A DNA stretch of 64,000 bases from Williamsia faeni (GTDB taxonomy: Bacteria > Actinomycetota > Actinomycetes > Mycobacteriales > Mycobacteriaceae). Shown piece by piece: positions 6,666-57,565 of the stretch. The position numbers were made by a program, and so were the translations under genes. The stretch lies in assembly GCA_003202005.1 (NCBI GenBank), contig QJJF01000001.1, forward strand, positions 155,099 through 219,098, read 5' to 3'. The notes under the pieces were generated by a model. That model was not told the origin of the DNA and ran no database searches. It saw nothing but the letters and a program-made list of their open reading frames with translations. Position 1 is the stretch's first letter, and each line of letters starts with the position of its first letter.

Positions 6666-7979
6666 ATGGCAGCTTTCGCATATGACTTCGTCATAGGCAC
6701 CGTCGTCAACCCGGCCGGCCTCATCCTCGCCAAGACGATTCCGGCGTCGCGGTTGACGGCGTTTTCCGAGGCCGGGCTCGGGGCCGGCCTGAGCTGGCAC
6801 GGGTTCGCCATCGACCAGGTCGGTATCGCCTTCAACGACGACATCGGGGTGGTCGGCGATCACCGGATCCTGGCCGATCACGATGCGCTGCGGACCCTTG
6901 GCGACGGGGTCGCCTGGGTGCCCGGCTCGTTCTACGACCAGCAGACCCGGCCCGTTCTCAGCTGCAGTCGCGGCACGCTGCGCCGGATCGAAGACCGACT
7001 GGCGGACACCGGATTGACCGCCCGAATCGGGCACGAGATCGAGTTCTTCCTGGTCGGACCGGACGGCGCCCAGTTACCATCCGCGTTGTGGGCGCAGTAC
7101 GGCCTGGCCGGGGTTCTCGAACACGAGACATTCATTCGCGATGTGACCACCTCCGCCGGTCTCGCCGGAATCGGCATCGAACAATTCCATCCCGAGTACG
7201 GACCCAATCAGTTCGAGTTGTCGCTCGCCCCACAGTCGCCGGTGGCGGCGGCCGATCAGCTGGTGCTGACCAAACTGGTGCTCGGTCGGACCGCACGCAA
7301 GTACGGTCTGCGGGTCAGCTTCTCCCCGGTCCCTTTCGCGGGCACGGTGGGTTCGGGTGCACACCAGCACTTCTCGCTGTCCGACGATTCCGGTTCATTG
7401 TTCGAGGGTGGTGACGGACCGTCGGGGATGACGCGACGGGGCCGGCATATCGTGGCCGGTCTGGTGGACGGGCTACCGGAAGCGCAAGCGATCCTCTGCG
7501 GCTCTGTGGTCTCGGGGCTGCGCATGAAGCCCGGCCATTGGGCAGGCGCATACACCTGTTGGGGCACCGAAAACCGTGAGGCGGCCATCCGGTTTCTCCC
7601 CGCCGGACCAGGAAAACCGCACGGCGCCAACGTCGAAGTCAAAGTCATCGACCCGTCGGCGAACCCCTATTTCGCCTCGGCGGCCATCCTCGCGCTCGCG
7701 CTGGACGGACTCGATCGAGAATCCGCGTTGCCCCCGGAAACAACGGTCGACCCGGCCACCCTCACCGCGGAAGAACGCGCCGCCGCGGGCACCGCGCTCC
7801 TGCCATCCGACCAGGGATCGGCGCTCGCCGCGCTCGACGGTTCGACGCGGTTGCGGGCCGCCCTCGGCGACCAGGCCGTCGATGCCATTCTCGCCGTCCG
7901 CCGCTACGAGAACGACAACTTCGGCGACCTCCCACCCGAGGCACTCACCGACCGCTTCCGCATGGCGTGGAGCGTCTGA
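6666..7979 (+). CDS. Glutamine-synthetase-family ligase (probable gamma-glutamyl-amine ligase)
   Basis: A 437-residue member of the glutamine synthetase superfamily. Metal/glutamate ligands are recognisable: GHEIEFF at about 122-128, EYGPNQFELSL near 177-187, GSGAHQHFSL near 229-238, KPGHWAGAYTCWGTENREAAIRF near 290-312 (given here only as the landmark KPGHW...ENREAAIRF), and VIDPSANPYFA near 325-335. It is not the housekeeping GlnA: the N terminus is divergent and it sits in a catabolic patch. Relatives gamma-glutamylate amines, polyamines, aniline or isopropylamine for degradation; that role here is inferred from the neighbouring reductase, VOC protein and amidohydrolase. It likely shares a transcript with the VOC gene. 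Confidence 0.8.
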   Translation: MAAFAYDFVIGTVVNPAGLILAKTIPASRLTAFSEAGLGAGLSWHGFAIDQVGIAFNDDIGVVGDHRILADHDALRTLGDGVAWVPGSFYDQQTRPVLSCSRGTLRRIEDRLADTGLTARIGHEIEFFLVGPDGAQLPSALWAQYGLAGVLEHETFIRDVTTSAGLAGIGIEQFHPEYGPNQFELSLAPQSPVAAADQLVLTKLVLGRTARKYGLRVSFSPVPFAGTVGSGAHQHFSLSDDSGSLFEGGDGPSGMTRRGRHIVAGLVDGLPEAQAILCGSVVSGLRMKPGHWAGAYTCWGTENREAAIRFLPAGPGKPHGANVEVKVIDPSANPYFASAAILALALDGLDRESALPPETTVDPATLTAEERAAAGTALLPSDQGSALAALDGSTRLRAALGDQAVDAILAVRRYENDNFGDLPPEALTDRFRMAWSV

Positions 7980-8032: not shown

Positions 8033-8110
8033 AATTCGCTCCACGTGTTTCGATTCGCTCCACTTCCTGCACACTGGAAATGGAGCGAATCGAAATAGGT
8101 GGAGCGGATT
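8033..8110. repeat. Palindromic repeat family E, copy 1
   Basis: An imperfect inverted repeat of about 78 bp. The left arm contains TTCGCTCCAC and GATTCGCTCCA; the right arm returns TGGAGCGAATC and GTGGAGCGGAT, with a short loop around 8067-8076. It can fold into a cruciform or hairpin with arms of about 33 nt. It ends 4 bp from the stop codon of the AbiEi-like gene. A second copy in the same orientation is at 9153-9238, just beyond the gene's 5' end. Confidence 0.85.
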
Positions 8111-8114
8111 CGGC

Positions 8115-9071
8115 CTAGCTAGCCAACTGTCCGGCGTTGCCGAGCGCCTCACGCAAGATTCGGTGCAGGCGGGCTGGCGTCGTGAGATCTTTCCAGCACC
8201 ATCGAATCACTATGATGCCGAGGCGGGCAATGCGTTGCTCCCGCAATTTCTCGCGTTCAAGAGCCTGCTCCTTGGTTTCGCCCGGGCGAAGATAACGGAT
8301 GTACTTGGCATATCCGTCGAACTCACCGACAACGACGCCGCCCCAGTCAAAATCCGTGCGGGCGACGAAGTCGCCTTCTGCGTCGCGGAAAACCTGTTGC
8401 AACCGGGGAATTGGGATATCCCCGTACGAATACATCAGCGCCCTCGAGTAGGATTCGCCGACGCTCTCGGCGGCCCCATCCGCAATCGCAAAAGCTCGGC
8501 CGGCCATCGCAATCCCCGTCCGACCACGACTCGACATCAGCACCCTTGCCAACTCATCGTGAGCCACACCCATCCGCAACGCTCCGTCCAATGCGCACAC
8601 GGCTTGCACAAAGCTGCCGCTCCTGGCCACATCGACAGCAGTTCGCGCCAGCGACGTCACCAACAGACCATCGATCACAACTGTCTCGCCTGATCGCCAC
8701 GGCGTCGAATGCAGCACGCTGGCGCGGCCCCTCCGGCGACCACCCGAGGTGCGGTTCGCGGTGAAATGCACGCGCGTGAAATCGCCATACAAGACCGGAA
8801 GTCCGTGCAGGACTGCCGCCGAGTAGTGGCTTATGGCTTTGGAGCCATCACCGGAATCTGCGGCCGCGAGGACCGTCCGACGGTAGGTCTCGCGTTGCCG
8901 CTCGTACTCGTCGAGGTCCTTGAGATCGCAACTATAGGTGTATACGCCGCGGTACAGGCGCTTGAGCTCTCCACTCTTCACCCGCTGTCGCAGCGCTGCG
9001 TCGGGCTGGCCGATCGACACTGCGTCTCGTCGTCGAAACAGGCCGTTGTCTTCAGAAGTGTTGTCCCCCAT
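8115..9071 (-). CDS. Solitary AbiEi-like protein with Vsr/DUF559-type nuclease-fold C terminus
   Basis: A 318-residue protein with an N-terminal winged-helix-like segment (about 10-45, ending LYRGVYTY) typical of AbiEi antitoxins, a middle region with SHYSAAVLHGLP and SLARTAVDVAR, and a C-terminal PD-(D/E)xK-like module: Asp240/Asp242 in RTDFDW, Glu250-Asp252 and Lys256 in GEFDGYAKY, then the helix EREKLREQRIARLG and strand IIVIRWCW. No AbiEii toxin gene is next to it, so it is not half of an intact type IV toxin-antitoxin operon. Copies of palindromic family E lie immediately 3' and 82 bp 5' of it. Function unknown; DNA binding or nicking is plausible from the fold. Confidence 0.8.
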   Translation of the reverse strand: MGDNTSEDNGLFRRRDAVSIGQPDAALRQRVKSGELKRLYRGVYTYSCDLKDLDEYERQRETYRRTVLAAADSGDGSKAISHYSAAVLHGLPVLYGDFTRVHFTANRTSGGRRRGRASVLHSTPWRSGETVVIDGLLVTSLARTAVDVARSGSFVQAVCALDGALRMGVAHDELARVLMSSRGRTGIAMAGRAFAIADGAAESVGESYSRALMYSYGDIPIPRLQQVFRDAEGDFVARTDFDWGGVVVGEFDGYAKYIRYLRPGETKEQALEREKLREQRIARLGIIVIRWCWKDLTTPARLHRILREALGNAGQLAS

Positions 9072-9152
9072 GGGTCAAGCATCGCGGGACAAGCGGTCGT
9101 CGAGTACGAGCCAGCGCCAAATTTTGGATGGAACCAGGAACTGTGGATAACC

Positions 9153-9238
9153 CAATCCGCTCCACCTGTTTTGATTCGCTCCACTTGCAGTGCGCTGGAA
9201 GTGGAGCGCACGTCGGCAAGTGGAGCGAATTTGATTGG
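9153..9238. repeat. Palindromic repeat family E, copy 2
   Basis: About 86 bp, same orientation as the copy at 8033. The left arm aligns with copy 1 with about five mismatches over 35 bases (AATCCGCTCCACCTG, GATTCGCTCCACTT) and the loop keeps the TGC..CTGGAA core. The right arm is partly degraded by an insertion-like segment (CACGTCGGC) but still ends AAGTGGAGCGAATTTGATT. It lies 82 bp upstream of the AbiEi-like start and just beyond the rpoC terminator. Confidence 0.82.
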
Positions 9239-9295: not shown

Positions 9296-12200
9296 CTAGC
9301 GGTAGTCGCTGCTGAAGCCGTAGTCGTCCAGCGGGACAGCCGCACCCGACGGGGCACCGAAGGTGCCGTCCGGGCTGTAGTAGGTGTCGTCGTAAGACGG
9401 CACCGCGTACGCGGCTGCACGTGCTTCTTCGGTCGGCTGCACCTGGATGTTCCGGTACCGGTTGATACCGGTTCCGGCCGGGATGAGCTTACCGATGATC
9501 ACGTTCTCCTTGAGGCCGACGAGCTTGTCGCTACGGCTGTTGATGGCCGCATCGGTGAGCACGCGAGTGGTCTCCTGGAACGACGCCGCCGACAACCACG
9601 ACTCGGTTGCGAGCGATGCCTTGGTGATACCCATGAGCACCGGACGTCCGGCCGCGGGCTCGCCGCCCTCGGCGACGACGCGACGGTTGGCCGCCTCGAA
9701 GTCGGCGCGCTCGGTGAGCGAACCGGGCAGGAACTCGGTGGCACCGGAATCGATGATCGTCACGCGACGCAGCATCTGACGAACGATCGTCTCGATGTGC
9801 TTGTCGTGGATCGACACACCCTGGCTCCGGTAGACCTCCTGGACCTCGTTGACCAGGTGGACCTGCACCTGACGGGGACCCATGACACGCAGCACCTCGT
9901 GCGGATCGGCAGCACCTTCCATGAGCTGCTGGCCGACCTCGACATGATCGCCGTCGGCGAGCAGACGCTCGCTGCCGTCCTCATGCTTGAACACGCGCAG
10001 ACGCTGACGCTTGGAGATCTTGTCGTAGACAACCTCTTCCGAGCCGTCGTCCGGGATGATCGTCATCTTGTAGAAGCGATCATCATCCTCGAGACGGATG
10101 CGTCCGGAGACCTCGGCGATCGGGGCCTTGCCCTTGGGGACACGGGCCTCGAACAGCTCCTGAACACGCGGCAGACCGCCCGTGATGTCGTCACCGACAC
10201 CACCCTGGTGGAACGTACGCATGGTCAGCTGGGTACCGGGCTCACCGATCGACTGGGCCGCGACGATACCGACGGCCTCGCCGATGTCGACGAGCTTGCC
10301 GGTGGCCATCGACCGTCCGTAGCAGGTGGCGCAGACGCCGGTGCCGGTGGCACAGGTCAGGACCGAACGGACCTTGACCTGCGAGATGCCGGCCGCGAGC
10401 AGTGCCTCGATCGCGGGATCACCGAGATCGAATCCGCGCTCGATGATGACCTTGCCATTCGCGTCGACCGCGTCGGTGGCCAATGTCCTTGCGAACGTTG
10501 ACGTTTCGACGTGAGCGTCGCGGATGAGCGAGCCGTCCGCCTGCTTCTCGGCGATGATCGTGTTGATGCCACGCTCGGTGCCACAGTCGGTCTCACGCAC
10601 GATGACGTCCTGCGACACGTCCACCAGACGACGGGTCAGGTAACCCGAGTCAGCGGTACGAAGCGCGGTGTCGGCCAGACCCTTACGGGCACCATGCGTG
10701 TTGATGAAGTACTCGGCGACGGTCAGACCCTCGCGGAACGAGGACTTGATCGGACGCGGGATGAACTCACCCTTCGGGTTGGTCACCAGACCCTTCATGC
10801 CCGCAAGCGAGCGGATCTGGGTCATGTTGCCCGCGGCACCGGACTGCACGATCATCGGAATCGGGTTGTCGTCGGGGTAGTGACGCTCCATATCGGCGCC
10901 AACCTCTTCGGTTGCCTGCTTCCAGATCTCCACCAGAGCGTCACGACGCTCGGCAGCGGTCAGGGCACCACGCTGGAACTTGCGCTCCAGCCCGTCTGCC
11001 CGATCCTCGTACTTGTCGAGGATGGCTGCCTTGTCCGGCGACACGAGCACGTCGGACATGGCGATGGTGACACCCGAGCGGGTGGCCCAGTAGAAACCGG
11101 CGTCCTTGAGCTTGTCGACGGTCTGCGCGACGACGATCATCGGGTAGCGCTCGGCCATGTCGTTGATGATCGTGGCCTGACGCTTCTTCGGCATTTGCTC
11201 GTTGACGAACGGGTAGTCGTTCGGCAGCAGCTCGTTGAACAGCACGCGACCAAGAGTGGTCTCGATGGTCCACGGGGTACCGAACTTCCAGCCCTCGGGG
11301 AACTGCTCCCGCTCGATCGCCCGGGTCGGACGCTGGTGCGTCAGCCGGACCTTGATCGGAGCCTGAACACTGAGCACGCCACGGTCGACTGCCATCTGGG
11401 CTTCGGACGGCGTGGAGTACACGCCGCGCTCGATGTCGTCGTCGGTCGAGGCCGTGTAGGCACCGACCGCCTGCTCCTTGAGCGTGGTGAGGTGGAACAG
11501 ACCGGTCACCATGTCCAGACGGGGCATGGCCAGCGGTCGACCCGAAGCCGGCGACAGGATGTTGTTCGACGACAGCATCAGGATGCGGGCCTCGGCCTGC
11601 GCCTCGGCGGACAGCGGCAGGTGGACTGCCATCTGGTCACCGTCGAAGTCGGCGTTGAAGGCCTCACACACGAGCGGGTGGAGCTGGATGGCCTTGCCCT
11701 CCACGAGCTGCGGCTCGAATGCCTGGATACCCAGACGGTGCAGCGTGGGCGCACGGTTGAGCAGCACGGGATGCTCGGCGATGACCTCTTCGAGGACGTC
11801 CCACACGGCCGGACGCTGACGCTCGACCATCCGCTTGGCGGACTTGATGTTCTGCGCCTGGTTCAGGTCGACGAGTCGCTTCATCACGAACGGCTTGAAC
11901 AGCTCGAGAGCCATCAGCTTGGGCAGACCACACTGATGCAGCTTGAGCTGCGGGCCGACGACGATGACCGAACGGCCCGAGTAGTCGACGCGCTTGCCGA
12001 GCAGGTTCTGACGGAAACGACCCTGCTTGCCCTTGAGCAGATCGCTCAGGGACTTCAGCGGGCGGTTACCCGGTCCGGTGACCGGACGGCCACGACGGCC
12101 GTTGTCGAACAGTGCGTCGACGGACTCCTGCAGCATCCGCTTCTCGTTGTTGACGATGATCTCGGGCGCACCCAGATCGATCAGTCGCTTGAGGCGGTTG

Positions 12201-13252
12201 TTGCGGTTGATCACGCGGCGGTACAGGTCGTTCAGGTCGGAGGTCGCAAAGCGGCCACCGTCGAGCTGGACCATCGGACGCAGCTCCGGCGGGATCACCG
12301 GCACGGCGTCGAGAACCATGCCCAGCGGCGAGTTGCCCGACCGGTGGAACGCAGCGACGACCTTGAGACGCTTCAGTGCACGGAGCTTCTTCTGCCCCTT
12401 GCCGTTACGAATCGTGTCGCGCAGGATCTCGGCCTCGGCAGCGATGTCGAAGTCCTCGAGCAGACGCTTGATGGCCTCGGCACCCATGGCTCCGGTGAAG
12501 TACTCGCCGTAGCGGTCCTGGATCTCGCGGTAGAGCTTCTCGTCGATGATCATCTGCTTGGGAGCAAGCTTGACGAACTTGTCCCAGATCTCGTCGAGAT
12601 CGTCGAGGGCACGCTGCGCGGTGTCGCGGATACGGCGCATCTCGCGCTCGCCGGCATCCTTCACCTTGCGGCGGGCATCGGCCTTGGCGCCTTCGCGCTC
12701 CAGCTCTGCCAGGTCCTCTTCGAGCTTCTTGGCGCGCTCTTCGAGGTCGGAGTCACGGGTATCGGCGACACCCTTCTTCTCGACCTCCATCTCGGCCTCG
12801 AGAGTGGACTTCTCGTTGTGACGCATTTCGTCGTCGACAGCGGTGATGACGTAGGCGGCGAAGTAGATGATCTTCTCGAGATCCTTCGGCGCCAGGTCGA
12901 GCAGGTAGCCCAACCGGCTCGGCACACCCTTGAAGTACCAGATGTGGGTGACCGGTGCGGCCAGCTCGATGTGACCCATCCGCTCACGACGCACCTTGGC
13001 GCGAGTGACCTCGACGCCGCAGCGCTCGCAGATGATGCCCTTGAAGCGGACGCGCTTGTACTTGCCGCAGTAGCACTCCCAGTCCCGGGTGGGACCAAAG
13101 ATCTTCTCGCAGAACAAGCCGTCCTTCTCTGGCTTGAGCGTGCGGTAGTTGATCGTCTCCGGCTTTTTGACCTCACCGAACGACCAGTTGTGGATGTCGT
13201 CGGCGGTGGCCAGGCCAATCTTCAGTTCATCGAAAAAGTTGACGTCGAGCAC
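9296..13252 (-). CDS. rpoC: DNA-directed RNA polymerase subunit beta'
   Basis: A 1318-residue beta' subunit of the actinobacterial type. Landmarks are the start [19 protein letters not shown], the N-terminal zinc site ([23 protein letters not shown], about residues 60-82), the absolutely conserved catalytic [14 protein letters not shown] near residue 535, the trigger-loop region [16 protein letters not shown], and the second zinc cluster [13 protein letters not shown]. With beta, alpha and omega it forms the RNA polymerase core. It starts at GTG 13252 behind an AAAGGT ribosome binding site, 40 bp after rpoB, and is cotranscribed with it. Confidence 0.99.
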
Positions 13253-47405: not shown

Positions 47406-47486
47406 TGGCAGGTATAGGATTCGAACCTATGTAGCTTGCGCGGCGGATTTACAATCCGCTCCCTTTGGCCGCTCGGGCAACCTGCC
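47406..47486 (-). tRNA. tRNA-Tyr (GTA)
   Basis: An 81-nt class II tRNA: acceptor GGCAGGT/ACCTGCC, anticodon GTA in GGATTGTAAATCC, long variable arm GCCGCGCAAGCTAC, T-arm ATAGGTTCGAATCCTAT. CCA is not encoded. Confidence 0.96.
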
Positions 47487-47647
47487 ATGCCACTTTCCGG
47501 TGTCTTTTGGACCGTCGGAAAGCAACGCGGGAAACATTACCTGCAGTACCCCCCATATTCACAAATGCGCTGCTCAGGGGCGCTGAATTCGCCGCTTTGG
47601 GCCAGGATGCAACGTTTCGGACAGGCACCGGACTACCCTTGTCGGTT

Positions 47648-48139
47648 ATGGCAGATTCCAGTTTCGACGTGGTCAGCAAACTCGACCGCCAAGAAGTCGA
47701 CAACGCGCTGAACCAGGCCGCCAAAGAGCTGTCTCAGCGCTACGACTTCCGCGGCACCAACACCACCATCGAGTGGTCCGGCGAAGAGAACATCGTGATC
47801 ACCTCCGACGCCGAGGAGCGGGCCCAGGCCGGGCTCGAGGTGTTCAAAGAAAAGCTCATCCGCCGCGACATCTCACTCAAGGCGTTCGACGCCGGTGACG
47901 TGGTGGGCTCGGGCAAGACCTACAAGATCACCGGGTCCCTCGTCCAGGGCATCGACTCGGAGAAGGCCAAGAAGATCACCAAGGCCATCCGCGACGAGGG
48001 CCCCAAGGGCGTCAAGGCACAGATCCAGGGCGAAGAGCTCCGCGTCTCCAGCAAAAAGCGCGACGATCTCCAGGAAGTCATCAACCTTCTCAAGGGCAAG
48101 GACTTCGAGATCGCCCTGCAGTTCGTCAACTACCGCTGA
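47648..48139 (+). CDS. YajQ-family nucleotide-binding protein
   Basis: A 163-residue YajQ/UPF0234 protein: [20 protein letters not shown] at the N terminus, [17 protein letters not shown], and [20 protein letters not shown], ending [12 protein letters not shown]. Relatives bind cyclic di-GMP or nucleic acids in some species; no such role can be inferred here. ATG 47648 gives the family N terminus. Its stop is 12 bp from a palindromic element. Confidence 0.92.
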
Positions 48140-48151
48140 CTCACCACCGAG

Positions 48152-48212
48152 TTCGTCCCCCTGAGTGCCTGCCGAGGGCATATTGCCCTCCGGCACCAGC
48201 CAGGGGGACGAA
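48152..48212. repeat. Palindromic repeat family P, copy 1
   Basis: A 61-bp near-perfect inverted repeat: TTCGTCCCCCTG...CAGGGGGACGAA outside and TGCCGAGGGCA...TGCCCTCCGGCA inside, around a TAT turn. It lies in the convergent space between yajQ and the exporter permease gene. Related copies bracket the gene at 62087. Confidence 0.85.
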
Positions 48213-48232
48213 TTTGGCGACACTCGCCGACG

Positions 48233-49840
48233 TCAATCCAAGTCGCGGCGCTTCAGCCCGACGGCTCCGGCAGCGGTGAGTAACACCACCGCCGCCGTGA
48301 GCCACAACAACGGCACCAGGTCGACGTCGACTGCCGGCACCTGCGGCACGTGCGAGAACGGTGAGATGTTGGCCACCCATTCCGGGAAATGCAGGATAGG
48401 TCCCAGGACATAGATCGTGACGGCGAACACCAGGCCGATCCAGGTGATCGGGGTGTAGCGATTCGCCCAGCCGTAGACCACGGCGACCACACCGGCGAGG
48501 CAGAGCACCGCCGGCAGGTAGGTGATCGGGGCACCGACGAGTGCCCCCGTCCCGGACCAATCCCCGGTGAACGTCCCGTAGCCCAGTTCGAGCCCGATTC
48601 CGGTCGCCACGAGTGCCAGCAGTGAACCGATCACGGTCATCAGTCCGTGAGCGCCGGCCCATCGCAGTCGGGTGAGTCTCGTCGCGAGCAGCGTCTCGGT
48701 GCGGCCTTCGCTCTCTTCCCGATGTGGTCGCATCGCGGACGACACCGCGAACCCGGAGGCGATCAATGCCAGCATCAACACCGACGACGCATAGAACGAG
48801 TCGGTCAGCGACGGCCCGGCTTGCGCGAAAAGGTCATTGGCATAACCGGAATCGCCGATGACCGGCTCCACATCGTCGCCGATGGTCCCGTATGCGAAGC
48901 CGGCCAACAGCATTCCGAAGGACCACCCGATGATCGAGCCCCGCTGCAGGCGCCAGGCGAAACCGACGGGCCCGGACAGTGTTTTGCCGGCATTCGACGG
49001 GCCTGGCCCCGGGGTCCACAGGCCGGCACCTTCGTCTCGCCGGTCGAACATCAGCACCACCAGCACCGCCGAGACGACCACCGCCGCCACCGACAGCAGC
49101 GCCGGCCACCAGATCTCGTCGGCATAGGGGCGCATCGCCTGGCCCCATCCGATCGGCGAGAGCCACGACAACACACCGTTGCCGACGTCGCCGATGGCGC
49201 GCAGGACGTAAGCGGCACCGATGAGCCCACCCGAGGCGGCGTACACGCCTCGGGTGGTCGGAAAGACCTGCGCCATCACGGCAGTGGCCGAGCCGAACAC
49301 CATGCCCGCGAGGGCGGCCGCCAATCCCAGCGACACCGACCCGGCAACCGGTAGCCCGAAGATCACCAGACTCGCGGTGATCAATGCGCCGGCGAGCACT
49401 GTGGCGCCGGCGGTCAGGATCGCGGCTGCCGTGGCGGTCGCCAGACGCCCGACCGGAGCCGCGAGCACCAACTCGCTTCGGCCGCGTTCCTCGTCCTCGC
49501 GGGTGGTACGCCCGACCAGGAACATCGCCATCAAGCCCATGGTGACCGCACCGAATGCCGATGCCTGCCAAGCCGTCTGCCCGCCAACGGTGTTGAGAGC
49601 CCGCGCCGGTCCGGCCATCGCGATGAACGCGTTGTTGGCGCCCATCGTCGCGGCGGCCGAGTCCAGGTCGGCCTGTGTCGGATACAGCGATTCGATGCCG
49701 GCGGCCGTCGAATAGTAGAGCGCAACGATTCCGATGGTCCACCACATCACCATCGTGCGGTTGCGGCGGAGATGGAAGCGCAGCAGAGTTCCGGTGCGGG
49801 CCGTGACCGACGGAGTCGAAAGTGTTGCGGCAGAGCTCAT
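48233..49840 (-). CDS. ABC exporter permease (antibiotic-exporter type)
   Basis: A 535-residue integral membrane protein with about 12 hydrophobic segments and internal duplication ([20 protein letters not shown] in the first half, [20 protein letters not shown] in the second), as in polyketide-antibiotic exporter permeases such as TnrB. Its ATG overlaps the ATPase stop (ATGA). It exports an unknown hydrophobic compound with the ATPase encoded upstream. Confidence 0.85.
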
Positions 49841-51744: not shown

Positions 51745-51811
51745 CCCGATGATGTGGCCTTTTGGCGCACAAAACCCCAGGTGAGCACCGCCAGAAGGGC
51801 ACATCATCGGG
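51745..51811. repeat. 67-bp hairpin element Q1
   Basis: A 67-bp element with terminal inverted repeats (CCCGATGATGTG and CACATCATCGGG) and a conserved loop containing CAAAACCCCAGGTG. It lies 10 bp from the stop of the polyprenyl synthase gene and upstream of htpX. Same size and strand as Q2 and Q3. Confidence 0.9.
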
Positions 51812-51821
51812 TCAGGAAGGC

Positions 51822-52832
51822 TTAGCCGACGCGGGCGATCGTGTATCGCACCAGCGAGCTCATCGCGTCGTGGGCGGGACCTTCCGGGAGGAGGGCCAAT
51901 TCCTTGTCGGCGGCATCGGCGTAGCCCTGCAGGGTGGCCTTCGCCTTCACCAGACCGTCGGACTTGTTGAGCAGTTCGAGGGCCTCGGCGACCTCGTCGT
52001 CCGAGGTGAGGGCGCGAGGAGTGCCGTCGGCCGCGACCACCAACTCGCGCAGGCGGGTCTCTGCCGGATCGGCCAGCGCGTAGAGCACGGGCAGGGTGTG
52101 CACCCCTTCACGCAGGTCGGTACCCGGGTTCTTGCCCGAGTCGCCGGCTGCCGAGCTGATGTCGATGATGTCGTCGGAGACCTGGAAGGCCACACCGACG
52201 GCGTCGCCGAGACGCGAGAGCCGTTCGATCTGCTCGGTGTCCGCGCCCGACGCCATGGCGCCGAAACGGCCACTGGCCGCGATCAGCGAACCGGTCTTCT
52301 CCCACACGACCCGCAGGTAGTGCTCCACCGGATCGACCTTGCCGCGGGCGCCGACGGTTTCGCGCATCTGGCCGGTCACCAGTTCCGCGAAGGTGTCGGC
52401 GATGATGAGGACTGCGTGCGGCCCCAGCGTCGAGACCAACCGCGAGGCGCGGGCGAATAGGAAGTCGCCGGCCAGGATGGCCACGCTGTTGCTCCACCGG
52501 CTGTTGGCGCTGAGCGCACCGCGGCGCAGCTCGGCTTCATCCATCACGTCGTCGTGGTACAGCGTCGCGAGGTGGATCATCTCGACAACGGTCGCCGACG
52601 TGATCACCTCATCGGCGTGCGGCTGTGGACCGAAGTGCGCCGACAAGATCGCGAAGATGGGGCGGAACCGCTTGCCCCCGGCCTTCGCAAGATGTGTGGC
52701 GGCCTCGGTCAGGAAATCCTCCCCGGAGGAGAGTTCCTTGAGCAACAGCTCCTCGACACTCACCAGCGACTGCGCCACGTCCTGGGCGAAAGCCTCGGAT
52801 CCCATTTCAAGACCTGCGAACGTTGTCTTCAC
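51822..52832 (-). CDS. grcC1: Polyprenyl diphosphate synthase (menaquinone side chain)
   Basis: A 336-residue trans-isoprenyl diphosphate synthase: GGKRFRPIFAILSAHFG near 53-69, first Asp-rich motif DDVMD at 94-98 with LRRG after it, GDFLFARAS near 124-132, second motif DDIID at 221-225. It makes the long isoprenoid tail for menaquinone. GTG 52832 gives the family N terminus. It is divergent from menJ (32 bp between starts), matching the mycobacterial grcC1-menJ pair. Confidence 0.9.
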   Translation of the reverse strand: MKTTFAGLEMGSEAFAQDVAQSLVSVEELLLKELSSGEDFLTEAATHLAKAGGKRFRPIFAILSAHFGPQPHADEVITSATVVEMIHLATLYHDDVMDEAELRRGALSANSRWSNSVAILAGDFLFARASRLVSTLGPHAVLIIADTFAELVTGQMRETVGARGKVDPVEHYLRVVWEKTGSLIAASGRFGAMASGADTEQIERLSRLGDAVGVAFQVSDDIIDISSAAGDSGKNPGTDLREGVHTLPVLYALADPAETRLRELVVAADGTPRALTSDDEVAEALELLNKSDGLVKAKATLQGYADAADKELALLPEGPAHDAMSSLVRYTIARVG

Positions 52833-52864
52833 GCCTGACCTGCTCCCGTCATAGCAAGAGCCTA

Positions 52865-54139
52865 ATGGTGCGGGATACTTGCCGGGTGAGTGCACCCATT
52901 CGCGTTCCCGCGCGCACCGAGGTTCTGGTCGTCGGCGCAGGTCCTGGAGGTTCCGCGGCAGCCGCTGCCGCAGCGTCTGCCGGCCGCGAGGTCACATTGC
53001 TCGATTCGGCGGTGTTTCCGCGCGACAAAACCTGCGGTGACGGGCTGACCCCACGCGCTATTACCGAACTCGACCGACTCGGACTCGGCGACGCCTTCAG
53101 CGGCCCCCGGATCGAGGGCCTCGACCTCCAGGGGTGGGGCGGACGCCAGCGGGTGCGATGGCCACAGAAGTCCGGGCATTTCCCCGCGTACGGCAGCGCG
53201 GTCACCCGAACCGAGCTCGACGACCGCATCCGGCGCCACGCCCTCGACGCGGGAGCCCAGATGGTGTCCGGGGTCAAGGCCGTCGGCGCCACCATCATCG
53301 GCGGCAAAGTGACTGCGGTACAGGTCAATACGCCCGACGGTCCGGCGCAGATCGAGGTCGGCAAGGTCATCGTCGCTGACGGTGTCCGCTCGGCGCTCGG
53401 CACGTCCCTGGGCCGTAGCTGGCATCGGACCACCGCCTACGGCGTCGCGGCGCGGGCCTACGTGGAGTCGGACCGCTGCGACGACACCTGGATGGGATCA
53501 CACCTCGAATTACGCGACGGCGCAGGCGAATTGCTGCCCGGGTACGGCTGGGTCTTCCCGCTCGGCAGAGCGTCCGGGCTGGTGAACATCGGGGTCGGCG
53601 CCCTCGCGACCGAGAAGCGCCCGGCCAACATGGCGCTGCGGCCGATCATCGAGCACTACACCAACTCCCAGCGCGACGACTGGCAACTGCGCGGCAAACC
53701 CCTGCGCATCGCGTCGGCACTCCTGCCGATGGGCGGGGCCGTATCCGGGGTGGCCGGCGCGAACTGGATGTTGATCGGCGATGCCGCAGCTTGCGTGAAC
53801 CCCCTCAACGGCGAGGGCATCGACTACGCCCTGGAAACCGCCCGGCTGGCCGTGGAAGTGCTTGGTGAGAAAGACTTTTCGACGCTGTGGCCGGACCTTC
53901 TCCGGTCGCGATACGCATTGGCGTTTTCGGCCGCCCGCCGTCTCGCCGCTGTGCTGACGGTCCCCCGGGTGGTCCCGATTCTCGGACGTCCAGGTATCCG
54001 ATCGGCCGCACTGATGTCGATGGTGGTCCGGGTGATGGGCAATCTGATCACGGAAGACGATTCCGACCTGATCGCCCGCGCCTGGCACCTCGCCGGCCTC
54101 ACCAGCAACAAACTCGACACCCGCCCGCCCTTCACCTGA
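52865..54139 (+). CDS. menJ: Menaquinone reductase (geranylgeranyl reductase family)
   Basis: A 424-residue FAD-dependent reductase: dinucleotide motif VLVVGAGPGGSAAAAAAAS near 19-37, FPRDKTCGDGLTPRAITELD, LLIGDAAACVNPLNGEGIDY-type site near 310-330. The relative in Mycobacterium tuberculosis (Rv0561c) partially saturates menaquinone-9. ATG 52865 (AAGAG upstream) is chosen; GTG 52886 is also possible. It is divergent from grcC1 and followed by Q2. Confidence 0.9.
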   Translation: MVRDTCRVSAPIRVPARTEVLVVGAGPGGSAAAAAAASAGREVTLLDSAVFPRDKTCGDGLTPRAITELDRLGLGDAFSGPRIEGLDLQGWGGRQRVRWPQKSGHFPAYGSAVTRTELDDRIRRHALDAGAQMVSGVKAVGATIIGGKVTAVQVNTPDGPAQIEVGKVIVADGVRSALGTSLGRSWHRTTAYGVAARAYVESDRCDDTWMGSHLELRDGAGELLPGYGWVFPLGRASGLVNIGVGALATEKRPANMALRPIIEHYTNSQRDDWQLRGKPLRIASALLPMGGAVSGVAGANWMLIGDAAACVNPLNGEGIDYALETARLAVEVLGEKDFSTLWPDLLRSRYALAFSAARRLAAVLTVPRVVPILGRPGIRSAALMSMVVRVMGNLITEDDSDLIARAWHLAGLTSNKLDTRPPFT

Positions 54140-54162: not shown

Positions 54163-54229
54163 CCCGATGATGTGCCCTTCTGGCGAACAAAACCCCAGGT
54201 GGGCACCGCCAAAACAGCACATCATCGGG
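54163..54229. repeat. 67-bp hairpin element Q2
   Basis: Second 67-bp copy, CCCGATGATGTG...CACATCATCGGG with the CAAAACCCCAGGTG loop, 24 bp after the menJ stop in the convergent space with the helicase gene. Confidence 0.92.
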
Positions 54230-54251: not shown

Positions 54252-57200
54252 CTACTCGAGCATCTTGCGGATGTCGTCGGCCTCGACGGCGGTCGAGAAC
54301 ATCTCGCCGTCGTCGATCACCGCATTGAACAATGCACGTTTGCGTTCCTGAAGGTCAACGACCTTCGCTTCGATGGTGTCGGCGGACACCAGTCGGTAGA
54401 CGGTCACCGGGCGGGTCTGGCCGATGCGGTGCGTGCGGTCGATGGCCTGGGCCTCGGCGGCCGGATTCCACCACGGGTCGCAGACGAAGCAGTAGTCGGC
54501 CTCGGTGAGGTTGAGTCCGAATCCGCCGGCTTTGAGACTGATCAGGAAGACCTGGGTCTCACCCGACGTGAACTTCTCGATGGCAACTGTCCGGTCCTTT
54601 GCCGATAGCGACCCGTCGAGGTAGCTGTACTGGATACCGTCCGCTTCCAATGACTTTCGCAGGATCCGGAGGAAGCCGGTGAACTGACTGAAGACGAGGG
54701 CGCTGTGTCCTTCGGCGATCAGTTCCGGAAGTTGTTCGCGGATGAACTCGACCTTGGCCGAGGCGACGTCGCTGTCGGCTGGGTCGACAAGTCCGGCATG
54801 CAGACTCAGTTGCCGGAGCATCGTCAGCGAGCGGAAGATCTGGAAGCGGTTCTTCTCCCAGTCGCCGAGCAGCCCGAGTACCACCTCGCGTTCCCGAACC
54901 AGCCGGGTGTCGTAGATCTTGCGGTGCCTGGGCGACAACTCGACCTGCATGACCTGCTCTTGCTTGGCCGGCAGATCCCGCGCTACCTGGTCTTTGGTTC
55001 GGCGCAACATCACCGGCTTGATCCGTTTGCGCAGCACCGGCAATCGTTCGGGATTCTCGCCCTTTTCGATGGGTTTGCGGAAGAATTCGGTGAACGACCT
55101 CGGACTGGGGAACAGACCTGGCACGGTGATCGACAGCAAGGACCACAGCTCCATCAGGTTGTTCTCCATCGGCGTTCCGGTGATGGCGAGTTTGAACGGT
55201 ACCTTCAGGCGTCGAGCACACTGATGCGCCTTGGAGTTGTGGTTCTTCACGAACTGCGCCTCGTCGAGAAGCAGTGCTGCCCAAGGCAGATCGTCGTAGG
55301 TGTCGAAGTCGATCCGCAGGAGGGCGTACGTGGTGATCACCACATCGGCGTCGGCGATCTGTTCGGCGAGCGACGTGCGACTTCGTGCCTGCGTGGCGGC
55401 GACGGTCACGGCCTTCATATCTGTGAAGCGGTGGCACTCCGACGCCCAGTTGCCGACCACACTGGTGGGCGCGACCACCAGAAACGTTCCGGTCTCCCCG
55501 TTTTCGCGGGCCCGCGCGAACAGCGCCAGGGTCTGCAGGGTCTTGCCGAGCCCCATGTCGTCGGCGAGGACCCCGCCTAGTCCGTTGTCCCACAGGAACG
55601 ACAGCCAATTCAGGCCGTCTCGTTGGTAGTCGCGCAGGGTGGCATGCAGCGTCGACGGCGGTTCGATGTGCTCTGGAGGTCGTGCCGCACTGAGCTTCTC
55701 GACGCGCTCCTGCCACTGCCCGAGTTGCTCGTCGACCACACCGAGTTGCAGAAGCTCTTCCCACAACGTCACGTTCGCCGGCACCGATGGAACCCGTCCG
55801 AAGTCCAACTCCCCCAAGGTTTCGGCTTCGGTCATCAGTTCTCTGAGCTTTTTCAGCTCAGGGGTGTCCAGCGGAAAGTAGACTCCCGACGGCAACAACA
55901 TATGCGTTGCACCAGTGGATAATTCGGCCAGCACCTCGGCCACCGGAACCTGTTCGCCGTCGACATCCATCGTGATGGCGAGGTCGAGCCAGTCCGAGTC
56001 CCCCGAGCCCGCGGCGCTGAACCGGAGTTGCGCAGGCGCAGTGACCGGCCGGTAGTTCGCACTGACCTCGGCGATGTCGAGCACCAGGTCGTCGCGGCCT
56101 GCCAGGTCGGGCAGGATTTCGGCAAACAGGCGCGCAGTCTCCACCGGCGTCAACTGCAGGTCGCGCCGCAACGTTCCGATCGTGGCATCCTGCGAGATGG
56201 AGGCGACAGACCCCATCACGCCGCGAAGTCCTTCCCACAGAAGGTGTTCGGCGCTCATGTCGCGCCACAGCAGCCCGGTCCCCGCGAGATCGTCGAAGTC
56301 CTTGACCTTGTCGTTGACCAAATAGCGCATGGCCCAATGGGTGTGGGCGACGTCGTGAATGATCCGGACGGTGAGAACGGCAACCGGCCCCGTGATGACG
56401 GGCGGCGTGAACACCGTCTCGTCCACGCGCACCGGCACCGATTCGCGCAATCGCGGCAACATCTCTTCGGCAAACGCGGCGGCATCGGCGGCGGGTATGA
56501 CAATCGGTGGACCGTCGAGCAGTTGCGCAATGGCACCGTTGTCGGGGTCGAACGGAGCCAGCGTGAGCAAACCATCGTCATCGATATACGAAATACCGTG
56601 CGGTGCAGCACTTCCTAGTATCTCGGCTCCGCCCGACGGCAGTGCCACGCCATCGACATCGATCTCGACCTCGACCCGCGCGTCATCGCCGATCTCGCCA
56701 CCGACGATGTCCAGGGTGAGCCCGGCGCGCTTGCCGATCTGCACGGTGTCGATTCCGGCCGCGCCGTCACCGAGTATCGGGATTCCGGCAGCAACCGCAG
56801 CTTCCAGGTGCCTCCAGATGGTGGGCGGTGCCGTCGTGAGGATCAACCCGTACGGGAGCCCGAATCTGATCGTCCGCATGGCATCGCGCGCCATCGCCTG
56901 GAGCACCGAGACCTGGTCCGTCTCGAAACGTTCGGGTGCGAGCCCGACGATCGTCGGCCAGTCGATACCCGACCTGATCCATGGCGTCCGCGTCCCAGGT
57001 CGCAGTGGCCGCAATGCGAGCTGCGACGGTTTGGGCCGGCGACCTCGGGTGACGCCCTCGCTGTAGAAGACCTGCAACGCCAGCGGCTCGGACGGTTTGG
57101 GCCTGTTTTCCGAAAGCAGCGGCCGCAACCGGCGGTCCCACTGCGGAACCTGCCCGGCGGGTGAACCCGGCAAGCCGGCCTCTTGGGCGAACGTGAGCAA

Positions 57201-57479
57201 CAGCGCCACAGCATGTTTGCAGAAGTAGCCGACCGGACATGTGCAGGACGCATCCGCAATTTTCCAGTCGATACCCAGACTGCTGAAAACAACGTCCACG
57301 TCGTACGTGGAGATCCCAGAGCCCACGCAGCGTCCGGTCAACCGGTGTTTCGGGTCATCCCAATTCACCGCGTTGACCCGCCGCTGCTTGGCATACGACG
57401 ACCCACGACTGAGCGACCCGGGGTCGAAGTCGCTCATCAGCGACGCCGGGGTGATCAGGTGCGCCCAGTCGGTGGTCAT
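54252..57479 (-). CDS. SNF2-family helicase with SWIM zinc finger
   Basis: A 1075-residue protein. The SWIM zinc motif (ASCTCPVGYFCKHAVALLL) is near residues 75-95; the SNF2 ATPase starts near 620 with NGLGGVLADDMGLGKTLQTL (Walker A) and LLLDEAQFVKN (motif II); the C-terminal helicase half has FLISLKAGGFGLNL and QAIDRTHRIGQTRPV. These are Swi2/Snf2-type DNA translocases, but bacterial targets are unclear. ATG 57479 is chosen over TTG 57497; neither has a clear ribosome binding site. It separates menJ from menG, and its 5' end abuts Q3. Confidence 0.9.
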   Translation of the reverse strand: MTTDWAHLITPASLMSDFDPGSLSRGSSYAKQRRVNAVNWDDPKHRLTGRCVGSGISTYDVDVVFSSLGIDWKIADASCTCPVGYFCKHAVALLLTFAQEAGLPGSPAGQVPQWDRRLRPLLSENRPKPSEPLALQVFYSEGVTRGRRPKPSQLALRPLRPGTRTPWIRSGIDWPTIVGLAPERFETDQVSVLQAMARDAMRTIRFGLPYGLILTTAPPTIWRHLEAAVAAGIPILGDGAAGIDTVQIGKRAGLTLDIVGGEIGDDARVEVEIDVDGVALPSGGAEILGSAAPHGISYIDDDGLLTLAPFDPDNGAIAQLLDGPPIVIPAADAAAFAEEMLPRLRESVPVRVDETVFTPPVITGPVAVLTVRIIHDVAHTHWAMRYLVNDKVKDFDDLAGTGLLWRDMSAEHLLWEGLRGVMGSVASISQDATIGTLRRDLQLTPVETARLFAEILPDLAGRDDLVLDIAEVSANYRPVTAPAQLRFSAAGSGDSDWLDLAITMDVDGEQVPVAEVLAELSTGATHMLLPSGVYFPLDTPELKKLRELMTEAETLGELDFGRVPSVPANVTLWEELLQLGVVDEQLGQWQERVEKLSAARPPEHIEPPSTLHATLRDYQRDGLNWLSFLWDNGLGGVLADDMGLGKTLQTLALFARARENGETGTFLVVAPTSVVGNWASECHRFTDMKAVTVAATQARSRTSLAEQIADADVVITTYALLRIDFDTYDDLPWAALLLDEAQFVKNHNSKAHQCARRLKVPFKLAITGTPMENNLMELWSLLSITVPGLFPSPRSFTEFFRKPIEKGENPERLPVLRKRIKPVMLRRTKDQVARDLPAKQEQVMQVELSPRHRKIYDTRLVREREVVLGLLGDWEKNRFQIFRSLTMLRQLSLHAGLVDPADSDVASAKVEFIREQLPELIAEGHSALVFSQFTGFLRILRKSLEADGIQYSYLDGSLSAKDRTVAIEKFTSGETQVFLISLKAGGFGLNLTEADYCFVCDPWWNPAAEAQAIDRTHRIGQTRPVTVYRLVSADTIEAKVVDLQERKRALFNAVIDDGEMFSTAVEADDIRKMLE

Positions 57480-57498
57480 TGGTTGCAGGTTAGCCAAC

Positions 57499-57565
57499 CC
57501 CGAAGATGTGGGCTTTTGGCGAACAAAACCCCAGGTGGGCCCCGCCAGAACAGCACATCATCGGG
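57499..57565. repeat. 67-bp hairpin element Q3
   Basis: Third 67-bp copy, CCCGAAGATGTG...CACATCATCGGG, same loop and strand. One base separates it from the menG stop codon; the helicase start is 20 bp away on the other side. Confidence 0.9.

Follow-up and report, generated by a model that had tools for sequence, protein, structure and literature searches.

Results

The window gene and its predicted product

The window (the whole stretch of DNA that was analyzed, 64,000 nucleotides from Williamsia faeni) carries a gene for a predicted two-part protein, and this gene is bracketed by two long palindromes. The features of the locus are listed below in the order of their coordinates.

8033..8110, no strand: downstream palindrome (palindrome 1) of family E, with four CGCTCCAC boxes at no more than 1 mismatch; 35-nt arms, 89% complementary
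8037-8044(+), 8056-8063(+), 8080-8087(-), 8099-8106(-): boxes of palindrome 1, paired 19 nt apart
8115..9071, minus strand: window gene for a predicted AbiEi_4 winged helix-turn-helix (wHTH) plus Vsr/PD-(D/E)xK-like protein, 318 aa, from the ORF, Pfam, PADLOC and homologs
8142..8471, minus strand: C-terminal nuclease-like region, residues 201-310 (E206, R210, Q225, D240, E250, D252, K256, R277), from the alignment, with the fold predicted via distant relatives
8934..9047, minus strand: wHTH (AbiEi_4) segment, residues 9-46, from Pfam; putative reader of the box
9142..9150, minus strand: DnaA-box-like motif TTATCCACA, beside the upstream palindrome on its start-codon side
9149..9236, no strand: upstream palindrome (palindrome 2) of family E, with four CGCTCCAC boxes at no more than 1 mismatch; 42-nt arms, 71% complementary
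9158-9165(+), 9177-9184(+), 9201-9208(-), 9220-9227(-): boxes of palindrome 2, paired 19 nt apart

The neighbors of the gene are an ORF at 6666-7979, which from its translation we take to be glutamine-synthetase-like, and an ORF at 9296-13252, presumably rpoC. No AbiEii-like (nucleotidyltransferase toxin) ORF was found beside the gene in the ORF list at the window locus. The earlier note had described the gene as solitary, and this description holds. The rpoC stretch of genome G008, which is placed in the window's genus, is 97% identical to that of the window. In the window's own genome (G000), a VOC-like gene and the element flank the glutamine-synthetase-like gene; in the other genomes of the genus, the VOC-like stretch aligns directly beside the element.

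The N-terminal part of the window protein matched AbiEi_4 in Pfam (E 5e-9, residues 9-46), and the AbiEi models of PADLOC matched the protein with E values down to 6e-16. No Pfam match of its own was found for the C-terminus. In a Pfam scan of the window protein up to E 1, AbiEi_4 was accompanied by one sub-threshold match and by no transposase, and Y1_Tnp was absent from eight relatives scanned up to E 5. NCBIfam gave no match for the window protein, and the search against solved structures returned three chance-level matches only.

PD-(D/E)xK nucleases are expected to carry conserved acidic and lysine active-site residues of the kind present in the C-terminal region. R210, D240, E250, D252 and R277 were 100% conserved in the 73 aligned homologs (the 74 loci L010-L083 minus L017, where the gene is cut by a contig end), and E206 and Q225 (99% each) and K256 (97%) were near-invariant. 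DUF559 and the Vsr-REase model MTES_1575 were matched by two distant bracketed relatives, namely the L112 gene at the rpoC site of genome G003 and the L014 gene of the window's own genome. The invariant residues and these matches are the reason for the PD-(D/E)xK-like label, and the distant relatives suggest that the C-terminus may adopt a Vsr-type restriction fold. The winged helix named in the earlier note was thus recovered directly by AbiEi_4, and its PD-(D/E)xK-like part, lacking a Pfam match in the window protein, rests on the invariant residues and the distant relatives.

Two palindromes bracket the gene

Palindrome 1 starts 4 bp past the stop codon, and the palindrome-1-like part of palindrome 2 begins at 9154, 82 bp before the start codon. 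Both distances agree with the bracketing claimed in the earlier note. In direct orientation the two palindromes share 84% identity across 55 nt, close to the likeness of about 85% given before for the left arm, and they are also 82% complementary over 82 nt; the direct orientation is uninformative because each copy is itself a palindrome. Folding of the plus strand as ssDNA gave z = -9.6 for palindrome 1 and z = -5.8 for palindrome 2, and none of 200 shuffles was as good for either. A 30-nt family E pattern with up to 3 mismatches was searched in the window's own 5.5-Mb genome. Three hits were obtained (control, 0), only at the two bracketing places, and BLAST with palindrome 1 in the same genome returned the same two places only.

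The motif beside the upstream palindrome, which resembles a DnaA box, belongs to a TTRTCCACA type. This type was found within 200 bp upstream of 34 of 71 homologs, on the start-codon side of the upstream palindrome, and downstream of none of the 71. Its density was about 2.7 per kb upstream vs 0.03-0.04 in far flanks and genes. The motif might tie expression to DnaA, or it might be part of the promoter.

The bracketed layout recurs among homologs

Homologs were found in 49 of the 61 genomes searched, the window's own genome included. The match between the upstream and downstream flanks of the same gene was scored and compared with mismatched pairs. The mean was 39.0 for own flanks vs 14.9 for mismatched pairs over 70 loci, a set that equals the 73 aligned homologs minus three more loci with short flanks. 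When the loci were grouped by flank similarity into 31 site clusters and the first usable locus of each was taken, 22 clusters lay above the 99th percentile of mismatched pairs, with an own mean of 35.6 vs 14.4. The nine clusters without a flank match include the short genes L072 and L078 as well as L015, where the start is apparently set too far upstream; some of the nine may be annotation artefacts and some may simply have no palindromes.

Five copies of the gene are present in G000, each with at least one adjoining palindrome. At L050 in genome G001, a gene of the GCACACC group, the downstream palindrome has been lost and the upstream one is partly kept. Tandem palindrome arrays with a 72-bp period and up to 7.4 copies occur on both gene sides at L061 (G008) and L063 (G004), and L056 has a repeat array with a 142-bp period. 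None of 50,697 phage records carried a homolog. Four of 72,556 plasmid records did, three from Tsukamurella and one from Collinsella; no palindrome pair was found at the three Tsukamurella copies, one of which has a single weak hairpin at the 3' end of the gene.

Box geometry recurs and box sequence is group-specific

In the clearest flanks, an 8-nt box occurs as two direct copies followed by two inverted copies, and the spacing within an arm is 19 nt whatever the sequence. A box occupying all eight sites was found at 21 of 70 loci and in none of 70 control stretches. When a single locus was taken from each cluster, an exact 8-mer repeat at lag 19 was present in 31 of 62 flanks vs 5 of 62 control flanks, and at lag 20 in 9 vs 0 (62 flanks each). 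The counts at lag 19 over all loci were 84 of 140 flanks vs 5 of 140 controls.

The box sequence varies by paralog group: CGCTCCAC belongs to the group of the window gene, and CAAACCCA, GCACACC, TCCTCCGA and others are found elsewhere. The palindromes of the distant L014 family, judged by eye, have no inner box repeat. It had been suggested that each paralog subgroup might have its own palindrome family. This was borne out, as the groups carry their own palindromes with differing boxes and the flanks match in the 22 clusters described above.

Co-variation between the wHTH and the palindrome gave rho 0.21 over 69 loci, compared with 0.11 for the C-terminus. With one locus per cluster, the partial r was 0.09 and 42 of 500 permutations were as high, which is not significant. 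The idea that wHTH and box co-evolve is weakened by these values. Stem covariation was 0.158 vs 0.088 in shuffled sets (0 of 500 as high) among 41 copies of the CAAACCCA family, a value that is favored by the choice of 41 of 46 solo loci, five weaker-matching ones being left out, and that can also be inflated by relatedness of the copies.

Palindromes are dispersed in genomes that carry the gene

Nine genomes of the genus (G000-G008) were searched for palindromes of each family. One query for the CAAACCCA family found 66 places, all in G000, G001, G002, G003 and G007, and a gene of that group or its sister group is present in all five. The same query found no places in G004, G005, G006 and G008. 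Another CAAACCCA query added further places, plus one weak match each in G005 and G006. Genome G002 has 17 CAAACCCA places, and only the sister-group gene was found there. The number of CAAACCCA places away from a gene ranged from 3 to 17 per genome in the five genomes.

A single query for the GCACACC family found 70 places, 69 of them in G001, G002, G003 and G007 and one in G006. The four genomes with the gene have 12-23 places each, and those without it have 0, 0, 0, 0 and 1. The totals of 66 and 70 include short partial matches and gene-side copies (8 per family).

For the TCCTCCGA family the figures are matches rather than places, so that one palindrome may count twice. Among the matches listed, there were 58, 57, 50 and 44 in G006, G004, G008 and G005 and 11 in G007, and the gene is present in all five. 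Also among the matches listed were 16 in G002, 6 in G001 and 4 in G003, where the gene of that group was not found; none of those listed were in G000.

Family E copies were not scattered randomly among the genomes; a random distribution with respect to AbiEi-like paralogs is what the earlier note had named as evidence against its proposal. When matches were merged by hand, 27 family-E-type places were counted in the nine genomes, and 25 of them lie in the five genomes that have either the window gene (G000) or its nearest relatives, those at site B (G001, G002, G003 and G007). The remaining 2 are in the other four genomes, three of which have a more distant rpoC-site relative and one a remnant. 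Nineteen family E loci were fetched. A homolog was found within 1.5 kb in five of them (in four, the window gene itself) and in none of the rest.

The co-occurrence of gene and palindrome amounts to nearly one phylogenetic contrast, because G004, G005, G006 and G008 are close kin, and shared descent could produce it. Among 80 solo loci, only 28 best matched a gene flank of their own genome. Across species, the sites of these 80 loci formed 19 shared clusters and 34 singletons.

Most placed solo palindromes lie between convergent genes

The position of solo copies was determined for 40 of the 120 CAAACCCA and GCACACC places that have no gene beside them, from G001 and G003 only, with ORFs called by a simple G+C rule; 38 were placed. 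Thirty of the 38 are tail-to-tail, 5 head-tail, 3 tail-head and 0 head-head, mostly within 20 nt of both stops. By comparison, 8 of 51 neighboring gene pairs in the window are tail-to-tail (Fisher p 2e-9). At one convergent site, G002 has a CAAACCCA palindrome, G001 a GCACACC palindrome, G007 a AAACCCAG palindrome and G003 none; in G000 the site is occupied by an ordinary terminator carrying a T-run. Neither end of the CAAACCCA consensus carries a T-run.

De novo scanning over 464 kb of the window's own chromosome yielded 16 long palindromes, compared with 0 centres in one block-shuffled copy. For four of the 16, one of three family genes is no more than 250 bp away, compared with 0.05 expected (p 2e-7). 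Six belong to the L014 family, and two of these are beside the L014 gene, a bracketed DUF559-type gene at G000:C1 near 304.5-305.3 kb, which belongs to the same contig and lies some 85 kb past the window. A solo palindrome at C1:487445 is family-E-like by eye, so family E is not wholly absent elsewhere in the own genome. Long de novo palindromes at G000:C1 367067, 429752, 521665 and 588943 have no assigned gene and are candidates for further families.

Three solo copies of the sister L014 family lie within the window.

51745..51811, no strand: solo palindrome CCCGATGATGTG...CACATCATCGGG, 67 nt
54163..54229, no strand: second solo copy, between the convergent ORFs 52823-54139(+) and 54252-57497(-)
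57499..57565, no strand: third solo copy, with both arms found, one with a mismatch

An inverted repeat at 48147-48217, with 34-nt arms that are 74% complementary, lies between the convergent ORFs 47465-48139(+) and 48233-49840(-) and is perhaps a solo palindrome of yet another family. An Rfam scan of the window found four tRNAs only.

Genes stay at their sites and are flipped or replaced there

Phylogenetic analysis was performed on 41 proteins of the genus. In the best tree, every one of the ten sites came out as one clade, and the number of label changes (10) was the minimum possible. Clade support by site ranged from 76/54 to 100/100 (rpoC 90/87, G 93/70, C 76/54). One clade per site indicates that the genes were inherited in place within the genus. 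The window protein is 68-72% identical to site-B proteins and 59-65% identical to other rpoC-site proteins. Hopping of genes between sites was suggested by the site-B identities and was rejected by the best tree.

At 5 of the 10 sites (rpoC, C, F, H and J), species differ in the orientation of the gene. At site J the flanks are 94-98% identical, and similarity within the reversed gene (77%) is confined to 307 nt. The flanks of the rpoC site are 88.7% and 98% alike between G001 and G003; the nuclease-type genes that they enclose are very distant from one another, and each is accompanied by palindromes of its own. The rpoC site of G005 holds a decayed gene remnant with palindromes on both sides. 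Four states were seen at site D, the last three by eye: the gene is present, the gene is gone between two palindromes, one decayed palindrome is present, or there is nothing. The site without the gene carries remnant-like bases.

The search for empty sites in relatives, which the earlier note had proposed, gave a divided answer. Presence and absence of palindromes at orthologous sites were observed. The three orthologous sites inspected where the palindrome is absent, all in G003, keep right-arm-like bases by eye and look like deletions with small remnants. No pristine target was observed, which weakens the case for such empty sites.

Discussion

Comparison with known systems

REP/REPIN-RAYT systems are the closest parallel, and REP/RAYT is the known example of a bacterial gene accompanied by many small palindromes. 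In the available text of PMC2817692 (Nunvar 2010) and PMC3116915 (Bertels 2011), a Y1-HuH transposase gene is bracketed by two copies of a palindromic repeat and each gene type has its own repeat. The repeats are dispersed extragenically and their presence tracks that of the gene, and the resident gene is not self-mobile and evolves faster than its neighbors. On how REP sequences spread, the text of PMC3116915 indicates that much is still to be found. The system described here shares several of these properties. The window gene is flanked by two repeats of its own type, a layout found likewise in 22 of 31 site clusters, and repeat arrays stand beside some genes. Three families, plus family E in relatives, are dispersed with exceptions in the extragenic space of gene-carrying genomes; this likeness is limited in that the window's own genome shows no dispersal of the E pattern as spelled. 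At site J the flanks are far more alike than the gene, which recalls the fast-evolving RAYT.

The differences are in the enzyme and in the repeat. No Y1/HuH domain match was found here, and a wHTH plus Vsr/PD-(D/E)xK-like protein is predicted instead. The palindrome is 60-80 nt long with four boxes at 19-nt spacing. The two families counted have 5-23 places per gene-carrying genome, compared with 37-427 perfect copies per genome reported for Stenotrophomonas in the available text of PMC2817692. We take the system to work like REP/RAYT without being a member, the likeness being convergent. The earlier note had seen a REP/RAYT-like layout with a different enzyme fold. The layout and the lack of a Y1 domain agree with it, and the other fold is predicted from the conserved residues and the distant relatives.

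Two further comparisons were made. The AbiE type IV system, as far as the text of PMC3985639 goes, shares the N-terminal wHTH family, and its AbiEi binds inverted repeats at its own promoter; the window gene differs in having no AbiEii partner, a nuclease-like C-terminus, a second palindrome after the stop codon and dispersed copies. MTES_1575_REase is presented in PMC3710099 as a novel Vsr-REase. MTES_1575 itself is a multidomain HEPN/transglutaminase/Vsr-REase/wHTH fusion that the available part of that paper does not describe as part of a repeat system, and the likeness lies in the MTES_1575 and DUF559 models matched by the distant bracketed relatives.

Alternative explanations

The strongest rival is a regulatory reading, in which the protein would be a DNA-binding regulator of the AbiEi type. 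The palindromes would serve as its operators and, where they lie between convergent genes, would be maintained by selection as bidirectional terminators or protein roadblocks; the nuclease-like domain would play a secondary part, and copies would arise slowly and survive where termination helps. In Streptococcus agalactiae, according to the available text of PMC3985639, AbiEi binds two inverted repeats and so represses its own promoter. The upstream palindrome of the bracketed genes stands beside a promoter-region motif in 34 of 71 homologs, the placed solo copies are mostly (30 of 38) between convergent genes about 20 nt from both stops, and at one site palindromes replace the canonical T-run terminator of G000. 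However, this explanation does not account for the second palindrome just past the stop codon, for nuclease-type residues invariant in 73 of 73 homologs, or for long, similar palindromes at unrelated sites, which require copying, and the CAAACCCA consensus ends without a T-run. We consider it unlikely, if still a serious contender. A degenerate or orphan AbiE toxin-antitoxin locus, in which the antitoxin keeps operators at both ends, would agree with the PADLOC AbiEi matches. It is very improbable in view of the glutamine-synthetase-like and rpoC neighbors that stand where an AbiEii-like gene would be expected, and of the invariant nuclease-type residues in the C-terminus.

Homing provides a different account of the palindromes. 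A homing-type selfish gene with a Vsr fold could use palindromic ends as polarity-free homology arms: a break at a resident palindrome would let an incoming allele replace the gene in either orientation, and solo palindromes would be scars. In Vsr-like (EDxHD) homing endonucleases a Vsr-type fold is used by a selfish gene, a likeness drawn by description only, and we know of no flanking palindromes in them. The flips at 5 of 10 genus sites fit homing, as do site J (flanks 94-98% identical, gene reversed and 77% alike over only 307 nt), the very distant genes with their own palindromes between shared flanks (88.7% and 98%) at the rpoC site of G001 and G003, and the series at site D from gene to gene-less palindromes, decayed palindrome or nothing. 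On the other hand, one clade per genus site means no hopping between sites here, and as scars, the 3-17 CAAACCCA places per genome that lie away from a gene would be numerous for a gene found only once or twice. Homing is judged improbable. The alternative offered in the earlier note, that the gene was trapped by chance between common repeats, is scarcely credible. A chance pair is conceivable, given that relatives carry such palindromes at other places. The alternative fails because the spelled E pattern matches the 5.5-Mb genome only at the two bracketing places; the same layout, with a sequence specific to the group, is also seen in 22 of 31 site clusters, and three genes have 4 of the 16 de novo palindromes at their sides, where 0.05 were expected.

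A proposed resident keeper of a palindrome family

The reading that we favor, and hold to be somewhat more likely than not, is that a family of extragenic palindromes has its resident "keeper" in this gene, in a design convergent with REP/RAYT that uses another enzyme. We infer that the protein binds the boxes, cuts DNA and thereby copies the palindromes. The wHTH domain would read the box of about 8 nt. Each palindrome offers four boxes, in inverted arms that hold two apiece at a distance of 19 nt, and several protomers could assemble on these, perhaps when the palindrome is extruded as a hairpin. The Vsr/PD-(D/E)xK-like domain would then nick or cut at the palindrome, and repair would copy or convert palindromes elsewhere in the genome. 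Repair between the two bracketing palindromes may occasionally flip or exchange the gene.

The earlier note had proposed a repeat-maintaining or mobilising role. The REP/RAYT-like reading survives most tests, but the gene itself is fixed at its site and vertically inherited in the genus; "mobilising" can therefore be said of the palindromes, or of local flipping and replacement, and of nothing else.

In a wider form, the keeper reading would add a second class of palindrome-keeping systems, one of independent origin, in Actinobacteria. Each family would have a resident nuclease of the wHTH/Vsr type, which would read and cut the four-box palindrome and drive its copying between convergent genes, and the palindromes would double as transcription barriers. 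Several keeper-palindrome pairs would coexist per genome and displace one another at the same site. This wider form could well be right, at slightly less than even chances. Neither the enzyme nor the repeat belongs to the REP/RAYT system, and only the layout is already known. In the open-licence PMC literature, covered in part and at the level of titles and abstract starts, no such nuclease-palindrome system was recognized.

If this interpretation is true, the arrangement known from REP/RAYT has been reached with an unrelated enzyme, which would make the arrangement itself a stable solution. It would offer an independent system for testing how such repeats spread, and it would account for many of the long palindromes at convergent gene ends in these bacteria. 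It would also suggest a function for proteins now labelled "AbiEi antitoxin domain" or "hypothetical".
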